From positions 4,999,501 through 5,063,500 of the forward strand of contig NZ_CP083956.1 in the NCBI RefSeq assembly GCF_006442795.2: a DNA stretch of 64,000 nucleotides, in the 5' to 3' direction. This document shows, piece by piece, positions 2,400 to 60,815 of the stretch (positions are counted from its first letter, which is position 1; the number at the start of each line of letters is the position of its first letter). A program made the translations under genes and the position numbers. The notes beneath the pieces are model-generated. The model made no database searches, had not been told where the DNA came from, and saw nothing but the letters and a program-made list of their open reading frames with translations. Origin of the DNA: Mesorhizobium sp. B1-1-8 (GTDB lineage: Bacteria > Pseudomonadota > Alphaproteobacteria > Rhizobiales > Rhizobiaceae).

Positions 2400-2771
2400 T
2401 CAGGCCGCTTCTTCCTTGTCTTCCTTGTCGTCCTTGTCTTCATTGTCGTCGTCGTCCGACTCGTCTTCGTCGTCGTCCTCGCCGTCCTCGTCTTCGTCAT
2501 CCGAGTCGTCGTCGCCCGAAGCCTTGGCTTCCTCATCGGCGTCTTCGTCCTCGTCGTCGTCCTCGCCGTCCTCATCCTCGTCGTCCGACTCGTCATCGGC
2601 CGAGGCTTTGGCTTCCTCGTCGTCGCCTTCGTCCTCGTCATCGTCGGACAGAGCGGCGGCTTCGACCACCGTGGCGGCGGCGGGGTCGATGGTGTTTTCG
2701 GAAGCGGATTCGCTCGCCTCGGCGGCGGCCGGCGTTTCTTCAGTCAATTCGATATCGTGATCGGAATTCAT
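2400..2771 (-). CDS. Extremely acidic low-complexity protein
   Basis: A 123-residue protein of unknown function. The first 40 residues are Ala/Glu/Ser/Thr-rich. From about residue 43 to the end nearly every residue is Asp or Glu, broken by two copies of a unit beginning EEAKAS and continuing with SDDEDEDGEDDDEDE. The two units make an internal tandem repeat of about 27 residues. No signal peptide or membrane segment is visible, so the protein should be cytosolic and disordered. A GGAGG-like site just upstream (minus strand) supports the ATG at 2771. The antisense strand reads as a poly-serine ORF, which I treat as a shadow. Candidate roles (nucleic-acid mimic, cation buffer, chaperone) are speculation. 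Confidence 0.6.
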   Translation of the reverse strand: MNSDHDIELTEETPAAAEASESASENTIDPAAATVVEAAALSDDDEDEGDDEEAKASADDESDDEDEDGEDDDEDEDADEEAKASGDDDSDDEDEDGEDDDEDESDDDDNEDKDDKEDKEEAA

Positions 2772-2935: not shown

Positions 2936-5392
2936 TCAGCCGACGATTTTGGAGAAATCGGCGACCTGGTCGGTGGCGGCGCGGATGCGGGCAAGCAGGG
3001 CCAGCCGGTTGGCGCGTACGGCCTGGTCCTCATCATTCACGAGAACCCGTTCAAAGAATGAATCAACCGGTTCACGCAACACGCTCAGCGCCAGCATGGC
3101 AGCGGAAAAATCTTCGTTTTGAATTGCTTGGCCGGCTTCCTTCTCGGCCTGATTCACCGCGGCAAACAGCGATTTCTCGGCATCCTCGCGAAACAGCGCC
3201 GGCTCAACAGTCTCGGCGATCAGCGTTTTCTTCTTCTCCTCGGCAGCCAGGATGTTGGCCGCGCGCTTGGTGCCGGCAAGCAGGTTCTTGCCATCCTCGC
3301 TGTCGAGGAAGGAACCCAGCGCCTCGACGCGGCGCACGATTTGCAGGAGATCGTCGGACCGCGGCGTGATGACGGCGTCGATCAGATCGTACCGCGCGCC
3401 CTGGTCACGAAGGTAGACCTTCAGGCGGTCGTGGAAGAAGGCTAGGACGTCGGACGACTGGTCCGTGCCAGCTGGGAAATTTGCAACGACTTTTGCGAAG
3501 GCCGACGCCAATTCCAGACGAATCCGGTTCTCGATCAGGATTCTCACCACGCCAAGCGCCGCGCGCCGCAATGCAAACGGATCCTTGCTGCCGGTGGGCT
3601 TTTCGTCGATGGCCCAGAAGCCGGTGAGCGTATCGAGCTTATCGGCAAGCGCCACCGCAATCGAGACTGGATCGGTCGGCACGCGGTCGGACGGACCTTG
3701 CGGTTTGTAGTGCTCCTCGGCGGCCGCCGCCACTGACGGATGCTCGCCCTGTAGCAGCGCGTATTTACGACCCATGATGCCTTGCAATTCCGGGAATTCG
3801 CCGACAACCTCTGTCTGCAGATCGGCCTTGGCCAAGACAGCAGCTCGGCTTGCGAGCGCGGTGATCTCCCCCCTTGAGGGGGAGATGGCCGGCAGGCCAG
3901 AGGGGGTCGGTCCGACCGGGCTCGGCCCTCTATCGCCGACGAAAAAGGTTGGCGCTTCACGCGAGGCGACCCCCTCTGTCGCCCTTGGCGACATCTGCCC
4001 CTCAGGGGGGGAGATCGACTGCGCCACGATCGGCGCCAGTTCTTCCGCAAGCTTTTTGATGCGCTCGACGCGCTCGCCCTGCGTGCCGAGCTTGGCGTGA
4101 AATGTCACGTTGAGATGATCGAGGCGGGCCATGCGCTGGTCGAGCGGCTTCTTCAGGTCGAGGCCGAACTTTTCCGCCGATGCCTGCAACTGGTCGAGGT
4201 CTGGCAAATCGCCCTGGTCAGTCCGCCAGAAATACAAAGCATCCGAAAGCCGTGCGCGCACCACCTTGCCGTTGCCGTAGGCGATCTCCTTGCCGCCGTC
4301 GGTCGCCTCGATGTTGGCGACGGGGATGAAGCGGTTGGAGAGATGGCTAATCTCCCCCCTTGAGGGGGAGATGCCCGGCAGGACAGAGGGGGTCGCTTCG
4401 GCTGACGCGACCTGATCTGGTCTGTCGTTGAAAGAGGAAGTTGGCGCTCCACGCGAGACGACCCCCTCTGTCGCCTTCGGCGACATCTCCCCCTCGAGGG
4501 GTGAGATTGGGCGCGACGTCACAAAACACTTCTGGTTGGCGCGGATGGTGAGCCGGATGACCTCGGCCGGGATGGTCAAAAAATCCTGCTCGAATTCGCC
4601 CATCAGCACGACCGGCCATTCGACGAGGCCGGAGACTTCTTCCAGCAGGCCCTGGTCCTCGACCAGGTCGAGCCCGTTGGCGAAGGCGATGTTGCGGGCG
4701 TCGGCCAGGATGATCTCTTTGCGCCGGTCGGCATCGAGCACGACCTTGGCCGCCTCCAGCTTGCTCACATAGTCGTTGAAGCGGCGGACGGTGATCGGGC
4801 CCGGCGCGTGGAAACGGTGGCCGTAGGTGATGTTGCCGGCGCGGATGCCGTCGATCTCGAAATCGACCACCACCGGCTCTTCGGTCTCCGGGCCGAAAGT
4901 GCAGACGATCGACTGCAGCGGCCGCACCCAGCGCAGCGAGCCGGGTTTTGCGGAGGCCGGCCCCCAGCGCATCGATTTCGGCCAGGGGAAATTGCGGATA
5001 ATGGCGGGCACCAGTTCGGCGATGATCTGATCCGCCGCCCTGCCCGGCTTGGAAACGTGGGCGACGTAAAAGTCGCCCTTCTTCGGGTCGGAATGGACAT
5101 GCGCCTCGGCAACCGAGGCAAGGCCGGCCTTGCGCAGGAAACCTTGCACGGCCTGCTCGGGCGCGGTCGTCGCGGGCCCCTTGATCTCCTCGCGAATGTC
5201 CTTGGAGCGCGCGGTCAGCCCGCGAATGTCGAGCGCCAGCCGCCGCGGCGTCCAATATTCGCGCGCCGCCTCATAGGTGAGGCCCGCCTCGACCATACCG
5301 TCGGTCAGCATCTTCCTGAGGTTGCCCGCAGCCTTGCGCTGCATGCGAGCGGGGATTTCCTCGGAACGAAGTTCAAGAAGCAGGTCGGGCAT
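2936..5392 (-). CDS. glyS: Glycyl-tRNA synthetase beta subunit with two in-frame palindromic-element insertions
   Basis: The beta subunit of the alpha2-beta2 glycyl-tRNA synthetase, needed for tRNA recognition and charging. It begins [17 protein letters not shown], the classic GlyS N terminus, and ends in the usual anticodon-binding helical domain ([16 protein letters not shown] near residue 620). At 818 residues it is about 100 longer than is normal for the family. The excess is accounted for by two insertions at about residues 295-348 and 459-510, both beginning ISP(L/P)EG(E/Q)MSP and ending ISPSRGEI. They sit between ordinary conserved blocks (KCFVTS / FIPVANIEA, and [15 protein letters not shown] / [11 protein letters not shown]). 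The insertions are encoded by copies of a palindromic repeat. glyQ lies upstream on the same strand, separated by about 400 bp. Confidence 0.97.
3863..4016 (-). repeat. Palindromic repeat element, copy B, in frame inside glyS
   Basis: About 154 bp bounded by inverted ends: GATCTCCCCCCTTGAGGGG on the left and the complement of TCAGGGGGGGAGATC on the right. Inside are a GGCAGGCCAGAGGGGGTCG block and the matching CGACCCCCTCTGTCG block in inverse orientation. It is translated as part of GlyS on the minus strand (about 50 residues, no stop). It closely matches the element at 4349-4508 and the intergenic copy at 21125-21292. Confidence 0.9.
4349..4508 (-). repeat. Palindromic repeat element, copy A, in frame inside glyS
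   Basis: About 160 bp with inverted ends: AATCTCCCCCCTTGAGGGGG on the left, and the right end read in reverse is AATCTCACCCCTCGAGGGGG. It is the same family, orientation and reading frame as copy B. The minus-strand translation starts [16 protein letters not shown] and ends GISPSRGEI. Confidence 0.9.
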
Positions 5393-5612: not shown

Positions 5613-5795
5613 ATGAAGACGGCATCGAGAACCCTGCAGATCCTGGCGCTCAGCGCCTGCTTCGCCGCGCAGATGCATGGCACGTTCGCGATGCCGGGGG
5701 TGAGACAAGCACTGCGCACGATCGACAGCGCCAGCAGCCAAATCACCCTGCCGATCACCGCCGCCACCGAAACCGCAAAAGCCGTATTGGGCTAA
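5613..5795 (+). CDS. Possible small secreted or membrane protein in the glyS-glyQ gap
   Basis: A 60-residue frame opposite to its neighbours, with G or C at most third codon positions, as expected of coding DNA here. It begins [20 protein letters not shown], which resembles a short signal peptide or anchor. It overlaps the end of glyQ by 4 bp and has no clear Shine-Dalgarno. A competing minus-strand frame (5402-5767) looks less like a protein. This may be chance; the rest of the 400-bp gap between glyS and glyQ shows nothing recognisable. Confidence 0.35.
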
Positions 5796-6766
5796 GCAGC
5801 CGCCAGGCCGCCCGCCCGCGTCTTCAGGAATGCCTCGCCGCAGGCCTTGGCCAGATTTCGCACGCGCAGGATGTAGCTCTGCCGCTCGGTGACCGAAATC
5901 ACGCCGCGCGCGTCGAGCAGGTTGAAAACGTGGCTGGCTTTGATGCACTGGTCATAGGCCGGGAAGACCATGCGATGCACCGGCAGATTGTCGTTCGACG
6001 CCGGCTGGCCGGCGTCGAGCAGCGCCCTGCACTCGGCCTCGGCATCCTCGAAATGCCGAAGCAGCATCGCCGTGTCGGCATATTCGAAATTGTGGCGCGA
6101 ATATTCCTGCTCGGCCTGCAGGAAGACGTCGCCATAGGTGACTTTTTCGGCGCCCTCGCGGCCGTTGAAATTGAGGTCGTAGATATTGTCGACGCCTTGC
6201 ACATACATGGCGAGCCGTTCCAGCCCGTAGGTGAGCTCACCCGCCACCGGGGCGCATTCGATGCCGCAGACCTGTTGGAAATAGGTGAACTGCGAGACCT
6301 CCATGCCGTCGCACCAGCATTCCCAGCCGAGACCCCAGGCGCCCAGCGTCGGGCTCTCCCAATCGTCCTCGACGAAGCGGATGTCGTGCAGCAGCGGATC
6401 GACGCCTATCGCCTCGAGCGAGCCGAGATAGAGCTCCTGCAGGTTGGGCGGGTTCGGCTTCAGGATCACCTGGTACTGATAGTAGTGCTGCAGCCGGTTC
6501 GGGTTCTCGCCGTAGCGGCCGTCCTTCGGCCGGCGCGAAGGCTGGACATAGGCGGCATTCCAGCGCAGCGGACCCAGCGCGCGCAAGGTGGTCGCCGGAT
6601 GGAAGGTGCCGGCGCCGACCTCCATGTCGTAGGGCTGCAGGATGACGCAGCCATAGGCGGCCCAGTAATTGTGCAAAGTCAGGATCAGCCCCTGGAACGA
6701 GCGGCTGGGATGCATATGGGCAGGGATGTCGATGGTCACGGCGGCCTCGGGAAGCGCGGAGATCAC
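5792..6766 (-). CDS. glyQ: Glycyl-tRNA synthetase alpha subunit
   Basis: The alpha subunit carries the class II catalytic core that activates glycine and charges tRNA-Gly together with GlyS. Conserved stretches run from [20 protein letters not shown] through [17 protein letters not shown] to the motif region [19 protein letters not shown], the usual GlyQ layout. I chose the GTG at 6766 (324 residues). A TTG at 6799 is in frame but would add non-family residues. The conserved part begins at MHPSRSFQ near residue 19. It is transcribed toward glyS. Confidence 0.96.
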
Positions 6767-6915
6767 GCATTCCCTAGTTGCCGGGCCGGCGAGCGTCAAG
6801 GCAGCCGCGCCCGTGTGCGCCGGCGAGGTTGAACGCTTTGCGGGCTACTGGCCCATTGCCGGCCGCTGCCGGTGGCCGTCCGCTCGCTCGAGTTTTCAAC
6901 GGCAAAGGTCTGGCC

Positions 6916-21124: not shown

Positions 21125-21292
21125 ATCTCCCCCCTTGAGGGGGAGATGGCCGGCAGGCCAGAGGGGGTCGCCTCGCGTGAAGCGCCAACCCTGTTTCTCT
21201 AAATTTGGTGTCCGCGCCGAATAGCGTCGCGTCCAGTCGAACCGACCCCCTCTGTCGCCTTCGGCGACATCTCCCCCTCGAGGGGGGAGATC
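21125..21292. repeat. Palindromic repeat element, copy C, intergenic
   Basis: About 168 bp with ends AATCTCCCCCCTTGAGGGGG and, in reverse, GATCTCCCCCCTCGAGGGGG. It has the same GGCAGGCCAGAGGGGGTCG / CGACCCCCTCTGTCG inner blocks as the two copies inside glyS. It lies between the 3' ends of rnhB and atpF. Its minus-strand reading begins [16 protein letters not shown] but hits a TAG, unlike the glyS copies. Confidence 0.9.
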
Positions 21293-60575: not shown

Positions 60576-60699
60576 ACGGGCGGCTGCCCGCTGGCAGTCC
60601 GTTTCACCGATTTGTCTGATAATTGATCCCACAAATCTGCACACCAGCTATGCACGTTTGGCAATTGCCGAATCATTGGGCAGACCGTAATTACTGGGT

Positions 60700-60815
60700 G
60701 TCGGCCATCTCCTCCTCCCAGATGTGATGCCGACGCTGAATGCGGTGTATCCTCCTCCCACGCCGTGTTCGAAATCGAGCCCGCTGCCACCTCCTCCCGG
60801 CAGCGGGCTTTTTCT
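60700..60815 (+). ncRNA. Small RNA with three CCTCCTCCC-loop hairpins (alpha-r14 / 'cuckoo' type)
   Basis: Three consecutive stem-loops, each presenting CCTCCTCCC. Hairpin 1 is 60700-60734 (GTCGGC-CATCT / AGATG-GCCGAC, loop CCTCCTCCC). Hairpin 2 is 60738-60770 (GAATGCGGTGT / ACGCCGTGTTC with three G-U pairs, loop ATCCTCCTCCC). Hairpin 3 is 60779-60808 (GCCCGCTGCC / GGCAGCGGGC, loop ACCTCCTCCC) followed by TTTTTCTT. The loops are complementary to Shine-Dalgarno sequences, as in the alpha-r14 RNAs of Sinorhizobium and CcsR/'cuckoo' RNAs of other alphaproteobacteria. The exact 5' end is not determined; no coding frame covers it. Confidence 0.85.
60779..60815 (+). terminator. Rho-independent terminator of the small RNA
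   Basis: 10-bp GC-rich stem with a 10-nt loop and a TTTTTCTT tract. It forms hairpin 3 of the small RNA. Confidence 0.9.

Follow-up and report, generated by a model that had tools for sequence, protein, structure and literature searches.

The window, by which we mean the whole stretch of 64,000 nucleotides analysed here, carries the gene for the beta subunit of glycine--tRNA ligase (glyS), with the alpha-subunit gene glyQ upstream of it (Table 1). GlyS scores 722 bits against the curated glyS model TIGR00211 (cut-off 300) and passes it. The initial annotation had described two palindromes within this gene, and the alignment of copies confirms them, at 152 and 158 bp: they are 80% and 83% identical to each other over two ungapped blocks, have the ISP...GEI reading phase in common, and contain no stop in that phase. 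It had also put GlyS at about 100 residues over the normal length, which is right, since insert-free GlyS proteins of the genus (e.g. L252, L254, and L257) have about 717 aa compared with the 818 aa found here. A third copy of the same element lies elsewhere in the window, and the observation that it is closed in the ISP phase was borne out on both strands. Adjoining glyS is an ORF of 123 aa (window 2400-2771, minus strand) that is very rich in Asp and Glu and has no Pfam match.

Table 1 Features of the glyS region and of the palindromic element in the window
Feature	Position	Strand	Basis or remark
glyS, beta subunit of glycine--tRNA ligase (818 aa), carrying two palindromic inserts	2936..5392	-	ORF and NCBIfam TIGR00211
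glyQ, alpha subunit of glycyl-tRNA synthetase, upstream of glyS	5792..6799	-	PF02091, 471 bits
Site A element, 158 bp, GlyS residues ~296-348, reading ends GISPSRGEI	4350..4507	-	Copy alignment
Site B element, 152 bp, GlyS residues ~460-510, reading ends AISPSRGEI	3864..4015	-	Copy alignment
Site A element, outer hairpin, one arm	4350..4372		Arm alignment
Site A element, outer hairpin, other arm	4485..4507		Arm alignment
Site B element, outer hairpin, one arm	3864..3886		Arm alignment
Site B element, outer hairpin, other arm	3993..4015		Arm alignment
Site D, empty in window glyS (residues 675-679), with palindromic elements there in other genomes	3356..3370	-	GlyS alignment
Third copy of the glyS element, 167 bp, no recognised gene around	21125..21291		Stops in ISP phase, both strands

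Architecture and dispersal of the element

The ends of the element are inverted repeats, with arms that are 92% complementary. An alignment of 30 copies reveals a plan of two mirror-image half units around a variable centre, in which each half unit combines an outer hairpin (ATCTCCCCCCTTGAGGGGGAGAT) with a 12- or 15-nt inner hairpin that occurs in three main versions and with AGAGGGGGTCG; the element ends are ATCTCC/GGAGAT. Folded as RNA, the site A element reaches -99.3 kcal/mol (z -9.0).

The core sequence CCCCCTCTGTC occurs four times in the window, compared with 0.04 expected. Exact matches to CAGAGGGGGTC number 71 in the genome (one for the reversed control); the larger contig has all of them and the 494-kb contig has none. 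When the 6.19-Mb genome was searched on both strands with a 161-base query, 82 matches were obtained, at 40 or more distinct places, with 40 of the 147 candidates scored. From the stretches fetched around the CAGAGGGGGTC matches, 28 complete copies were recovered, 26 of them outside glyS, together with 23 groups of incomplete copies. The genome-wide count proposed in the initial annotation thus reveals a dispersed element, and the possibility raised there that no similar DNA would occur elsewhere does not hold. The element has the traits of a MITE: terminal inverted repeats, a length within 70-300 bp, and no transposase of its own. Comparison of filled and empty alleles gave no clear target duplication and no clean empty orthologous site.

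A tblastn search with an insert peptide against plasmids returned no match. Half units of the element, at the nucleotide level, are present in 156 plasmid records, mostly from Sinorhizobium, Rhizobium, and Shinella, and a 46-nt half unit that is 93.5% identical is present in S. meliloti pSymB, in a record with hardly any annotated genes. Osteras et al. reportedly described, in 1995, the Rhizobium-specific intergenic mosaic elements (RIME). The glyS element resembles these in being a rhizobial repeat with related half units dispersed in other rhizobia, S. meliloti included, and the half units in pSymB suggest that kinship with RIME is likely. Unlike RIME as intergenic repeats, it has two copies inside glyS and incomplete copies inside hydantoinase and gcrA ORFs.

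Half-sites on the larger contig of the window genome (G000) are clustered in two bands, at 0.68-1.67 Mb and 3.92-5.02 Mb. Outside these bands are two half-sites, one of them in the hydantoinase gene, and the second contig has none. The half-site bands of genome G077 resemble those of G000. An origin or terminus was considered as the cause of this clustering and set aside, the GC skew being too weak to place either.

Three insertion sites in GlyS and five palindrome types

One glyS locus was taken from each genome searched in the genus, Mesorhizobium, and the proteins were aligned; GlyS is present in 146 of 146. Open frames are mostly 705-955 aa long, with the shorter ones at contig ends or breaks. 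Seven proteins were dropped, leaving 139 readable genus GlyS, and the exclusion of GlyS shorter than 650 aa (7 of 246) left 239 for the motif counts below. Insertions occur at three sites, namely A (residue ~291, after QKCFV), B (residue ~457, after AEELAPIV), and D (residue ~674, between LIDAV and DDLLQIV). A palindromic element is present at some site in 63 of the 139 readable proteins, and 73 are empty at all three. The element found in the window, here called the ISP type (this and the type names GGGR, HLLP, REER, and HPND were coined in this analysis), occupies site A in 10 of the 139, with two further partial forms, site B in 40, and site D in 35. Filled sites are also found in the named strains M. 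metallidurans STM 2683 (D), M. escarrei STM5069 (B and D), and Mesorhizobium sp. WSM3862 (A and B), whose loci overlap in part with the genus genomes. An alignment of GlyS across relatives, as first suggested in the initial annotation, therefore has the blocks present in some Mesorhizobium and absent from others.

The palindromes themselves could have misled sequencing or assembly, and some loci have the marks of this: N gaps lie at the element in L034 and L116, N occurs in the site D DNA of L057, the frame is broken in L059, L060, and L138, and the site D end of L139 is rearranged. However, the same inserts recur at the same sites in numerous separate assemblies, among them genomes in one contig and those of named strains, and the probability that the inserts are artefacts, which the initial annotation had allowed for, is negligible.

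Across genera, five distinct palindrome types (ISP, GGGR, HLLP, REER, and HPND) are found at the GlyS sites. The GGGR type (PLEGGGR/LWGGR...GEG) occurs at A, B, and D, and its hosts include, among others, Rhizobium rhizogenes, R. tropici, Peteryoungia, and Tianweitania at A and R. tubonense at D. The HLLP type (SSGPSGHLLPQGEK) occurs at A and D, the REER type at D, and the HPND type at A. Genome dispersal was checked for ISP, HLLP, and GGGR, and the palindromic nature of REER and HPND was judged by eye. HLLP is dispersed, with 25 matches in G055 and 77 in G177. GGGR has 8 matches in G193; two of these are GlyS sites B and D, 95% identical to each other, and another lies ~0.1 kb upstream of glyS. 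The pattern given in the initial annotation, in which glyS was hit twice, thus stands for the window and is wider than was described there, with three sites, five palindrome types, many genera, and other host genes now involved.

All 208 motif matches in the 239 GlyS fall in A, B, or D, although the motifs were derived from these inserts, so that other types elsewhere in GlyS would be missed. Twenty family-level glyS loci were picked for their long ORFs and therefore yield no frequency. Outside the family but within the order, 27 GlyS loci were read, some with unreadable sites, and repeat-like inserts are present at A or D in two of them (L443 and L453). On a FastTree phylogeny of 227 GlyS cores (12 duplicate cores were left out), parsimony requires 27 changes at A, 26 at B, and 29 at D, and these counts lean high because the tree was built from GlyS alone. 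Tree error and recombination both inflate the number of changes, and the minimum of separate insertions is more safely taken from the number of types. Alleles filled at A and at D have extra flanking DNA in common beyond the element, which means that copying from one site to another, or the exchange of glyS segments, is involved as well.

How these loops are chosen may have to do with the palindromes already there. If the elements, or the repair of hairpins, preferred DNA that holds a palindrome, an early insertion would turn its site into a hot spot. The GGGR matches of G193 fit such site-directed insertion, in that as few as eight matches include GlyS B and D and the place just upstream of glyS, and so do the other palindromes found inside or replacing the element at the locus orthologous to the third window copy (L337 and L346). 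On the other hand, the empty A and B alleles have no hairpin obvious to the eye, and pieces of the repeat occur in other genes too. We consider site-directed insertion rather doubtful, though it is compatible with the explanation preferred below and the two can hold together. Equally tentative is the idea that GlyS is a true shared landing pad, whether by insertion directed from palindrome into palindrome or because long disordered loops are favoured.

Two other kinds of variation in GlyS were observed. A different insert of 30 aa is present at site B in five genus GlyS (L077, L127, L131, L144, and L165); it resembles NFFDGKLLSADDLNVEQKYLRER in four of the five, and a similar motif occurs in L249, which belongs to another genus. 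A fourth, hypervariable segment lies in the HD region (window ~3455-3517, residues ~626-646), where many unlike sequences of 6 to 111 aa without palindrome motifs occur at one place across Mesorhizobium. This looks like the repeated exchange of a small domain.

Reading frame, constraint, and decay of the inserts

The glyS frame is uninterrupted in 136 of the 146 genus loci, two of which are cut only by the fetched stretch. The remaining loci comprise four that end with the contig, two with N gaps, three with frame breaks (L059, L060, and L138), and one that is rearranged (L139). The frame breaks fall in an insert or scar and the rearranged end of L139 at site D, and sequencing or assembly error is likely behind all six of the gapped, broken, or rearranged loci.

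From the single closed intergenic copy, the initial annotation had argued that openness in glyS is selected. This argument is weak, because 33 of the 52 strand readings of the 26 complete copies outside glyS are also open in the ISP phase; the same is true of 42 of 58 non-glyS readings in G077, and an open reading phase was accordingly rejected as proof of selection. Only 18 of the 52 readings are open and also have a length that preserves the frame.

A better argument than openness comes from phase-specific pN/pS. For the elements alone, pooled over five length groups from genus genomes in which pairs are not independent, pN/pS is 0.64 in the real phase (bootstrap 0.52-0.80), compared with 0.94 and 1.17 in the shifted phases. 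The groups have real-phase values of 0.58, 0.74, 0.45, 0.97, and 0.71, and the one with the opposite trend (site D, 49 aa, n 4) has 0.97 in the real phase and 0.25 in phase 1. Values for inserts with flanks (0.42, 0.67, and 0.47) look stronger, but this comes in part from the host flanks, and the weaker element-only figure is therefore used here. Variable columns within the element are distributed over the three codon positions as 79/64/94, a modest bias (p 0.058), and six non-coding orthologues of the 21125 locus have no such periodicity (21/28/27). Arg and Lys make up a fraction of 0.07-0.10 of the GlyS inserts, compared with 0.15 for copies elsewhere in the same phase and 0.23 in the next phase. 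Cys is almost absent from the inserts and less frequent there than in other same-phase copies. Taken at the sequence level, the inserts are probably translated under weak constraint.

Alternatively, the element could be spliced from the mRNA or bypassed by the ribosome, leaving a GlyS protein of normal length. Hairpins occur in known ribosome bypass systems, and both the very strong RNA fold of the element and the frame breaks of L059, L060, and L138 would be in keeping with removal of this kind. If the insert were spliced or bypassed, however, its frame and codons would drift, whereas nearly all genus glyS genes are uninterrupted against the 18 of 52 non-glyS readings that could be so, and the real phase alone has a pN/pS clearly under 1. 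Splicing or bypass is thus very unlikely.

Structure prediction places both inserts in turns between structural elements. In the model, the A insert lies between strands 290-293 and 351-356 and the B insert between helices 438-460 and 507-520; residues 300-348 (A) and 466-501 (B) have predicted pLDDT values below 50, suggesting that both are disordered. A search for folds beyond GlyRS gave single-domain matches only.

Longer loops might also have been domesticated, that is, positively selected as useful to GlyRS in tRNA handling, partner binding, or escape from an inhibitor. This would account for the collection of inserts at three sites in GlyS and for the separate hypervariable, non-palindromic segment, and it would agree with the recurrence of several types in the same loops in many genera, with the constraint on the peptide, and with the low Arg/Lys and Cys content. 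Yet more than half of the readable genus GlyS are empty at every site and scars exist, the inserts with their flanks are far less constrained (pN/pS 0.41-0.67) than the GlyS core (0.10-0.16), and they are predicted to be disordered. We regard domestication as unlikely.

Remnants of the insert are found in several genus proteins. Eight codons resembling ISPSRGEI remain at site B in L037, L128, and L139 and at site D in L037, L041, L052, L054, L056, and L089. The spacer orthologous to that of the 21125 copy is occupied by the full element in some relatives and by a single hairpin in L339, L342, L345, L351, and L352. Deletion between the arms would explain both the GlyS scars and the single hairpins of the spacer. 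In two relatives (L337 and L346), another palindrome (CATCCTCGGGCTTGACCCGAGGATC) is inside the element of this spacer or replaces it. The arms covary at site D, where 10 of 5000 shuffles were as good, and covariation was not significant at A (464 of 5000) or B (1190 of 5000). Among the other copies of the window genome, 4352 of 5000 shuffles were as good, and the arms differ by indels.

These data are very probably explained by non-autonomous, MITE-like repeats that have been inserted repeatedly into GlyS, are tolerated there as translated, disordered loops, and decay to scars. Such palindromic repeats would have spread through the genome by transposition, mostly outside genes. A repeat landing in frame in a flexible GlyS loop would not close the gene, as stops are usually missing from two of the three phases, and the insert would be translated in the cell as a disordered loop of ~40-65 residues, rich in Pro, Ser, and Gly, whose disorder may be what makes it tolerable. 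Selection would then maintain the frame and constrain the peptide weakly, until a later deletion between the arms dropped the middle and left the 8-codon hairpin scar. Three loops of GlyS may tolerate inserts so readily, or attract them so strongly, that distinct types have entered them again and again in the family and outside it.

Other host genes and known palindromic elements

Complete copies within recognised genes of the window genome are limited to the two in glyS, and 16 ORFs that span complete copies outside glyS have no Pfam match. Incomplete copies are found in other genes. One, at 2631359, lies in a 1267-aa hydantoinase/oxoprolinase ORF (L191:7356-11156:-) between the matches to PF05378 (23-201) and PF01968 (298-552); it has diverged, with the ISP phase kept. 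A half unit at 4427549 lies in an ORF for the cell-cycle regulator GcrA (L201:9127-9948:-; PF07750, 27.2 bits, cut-off 26.9), in a phase that differs from ISP. Ten further ORFs spanning incomplete copies yielded one Pfam match, a permease domain beyond the repeat, and three more were Pfam-negative, part of the spanning ORFs having been scanned. For G077, 30 copies were examined, of which the one in glyS alone passed the flank test, a test that recognises both flanks in just 4 of the 8 known glyS copies; the 18 spanning ORFs of G077 gave one Pfam match, a GNAT domain downstream of the element.

In genome G177, GlyS is filled at all three sites, and two more HLLP copies are in frame in IleS and in a PcrA/UvrD helicase. 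The IleS match (TIGR00392, 767 bits, residues 16-953) spans the element at 500-543, and the helicase match (TIGR01073, 744 bits, below the cut-off of 911, residues 61-788) contains it at 301-343. All four in-gene HLLP copies of this genome (two in GlyS, one each in IleS and PcrA) use one reading, PSSGPSGHLLPQGEK or a variant of it, with 3 to 5 of the 6 readings open in each copy. With the hydantoinase, GcrA, IleS, and PcrA copies, the notion of glyS as the sole host gene was abandoned.

The initial annotation had likened the inserts to Rickettsia palindromic elements (RPE), pointing to the two in-frame palindromes held by one gene, that of an essential synthetase. This likeness is supported by the variable filling of the sites and the dispersal of the element. 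RPE (Ogata 2000, 2002) comprise several families and occur in frame in genes of unrelated function, according to PMC10969869, where the 2002 paper is listed among the references under a title in which protein-coding palindromes are termed "unique but recurrent" in Rickettsia. Going by these descriptions, the two have in common a length of ~150 bp, palindromic structure, several families, in-frame positions in unrelated genes, and a peptide conserved within the family. The elements described here differ in being outside Rickettsia, in that most copies tested (in two genomes) are outside recognised genes, and in that several types converge on three GlyS loops. Judged by these described traits, the glyS elements seem to work like RPE.

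Intragenic GTAG/CGTC REPs (Di Nocera et al. 2013, PMC3733652) occur in tRNA synthetases and UvrD/Rep helicases, sometimes twice per gene, and different REPs lie at about one recB site in two Xanthomonas species. In-frame palindromes in these two classes of enzyme, at times two per gene, are thus a feature that the REPs and our elements share. However, the ends of the element have no GTAG/CGTC tag, and a search for Y1 transposases (Y1_Tnp, PF01797, the one family covered) gave 0 matches in the window genome, with matches in 5 of 14 genomes as a positive control. REP units are also given there as 20-40 bp, whereas the element is ~150 bp, and the common GlyS sites span many genera and five types. 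RPEs and intragenic REPs are the same kind of phenomenon as the glyS inserts, and one already known. The QMITEs of Coxiella, as outlined in PMC5896051, are likewise MITE-like and sometimes in frame in ORFs, a likeness by description only; they belong to another lineage and have direct repeats, which were not resolved for the glyS element.

A literature search that reached few subscription papers found no report of palindromic inserts in rhizobial GlyS, and the palindrome families and the three-site landing pad common to relatives, as recognised from sequence comparison, appear to be new. This system has many sequenced and mostly free-living members, and an essential enzyme with solved homologues in which three fixed loops have been invaded by several palindrome types. 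Its natural filled, scarred, and empty alleles therefore make old questions testable, namely whether such inserts are translated, what they cost, how the repeats move, and whether new protein sequence comes of them. Annotators should bear in mind that a block that looks conserved in GlyS, IleS, PcrA, or GcrA may consist of repeat DNA. Elsewhere in the window, an Rfam match to ar14, an alphaproteobacterial sRNA, is present at 60696-60815 on the plus strand, with 79.1 bits against a gathering threshold of 58.8.
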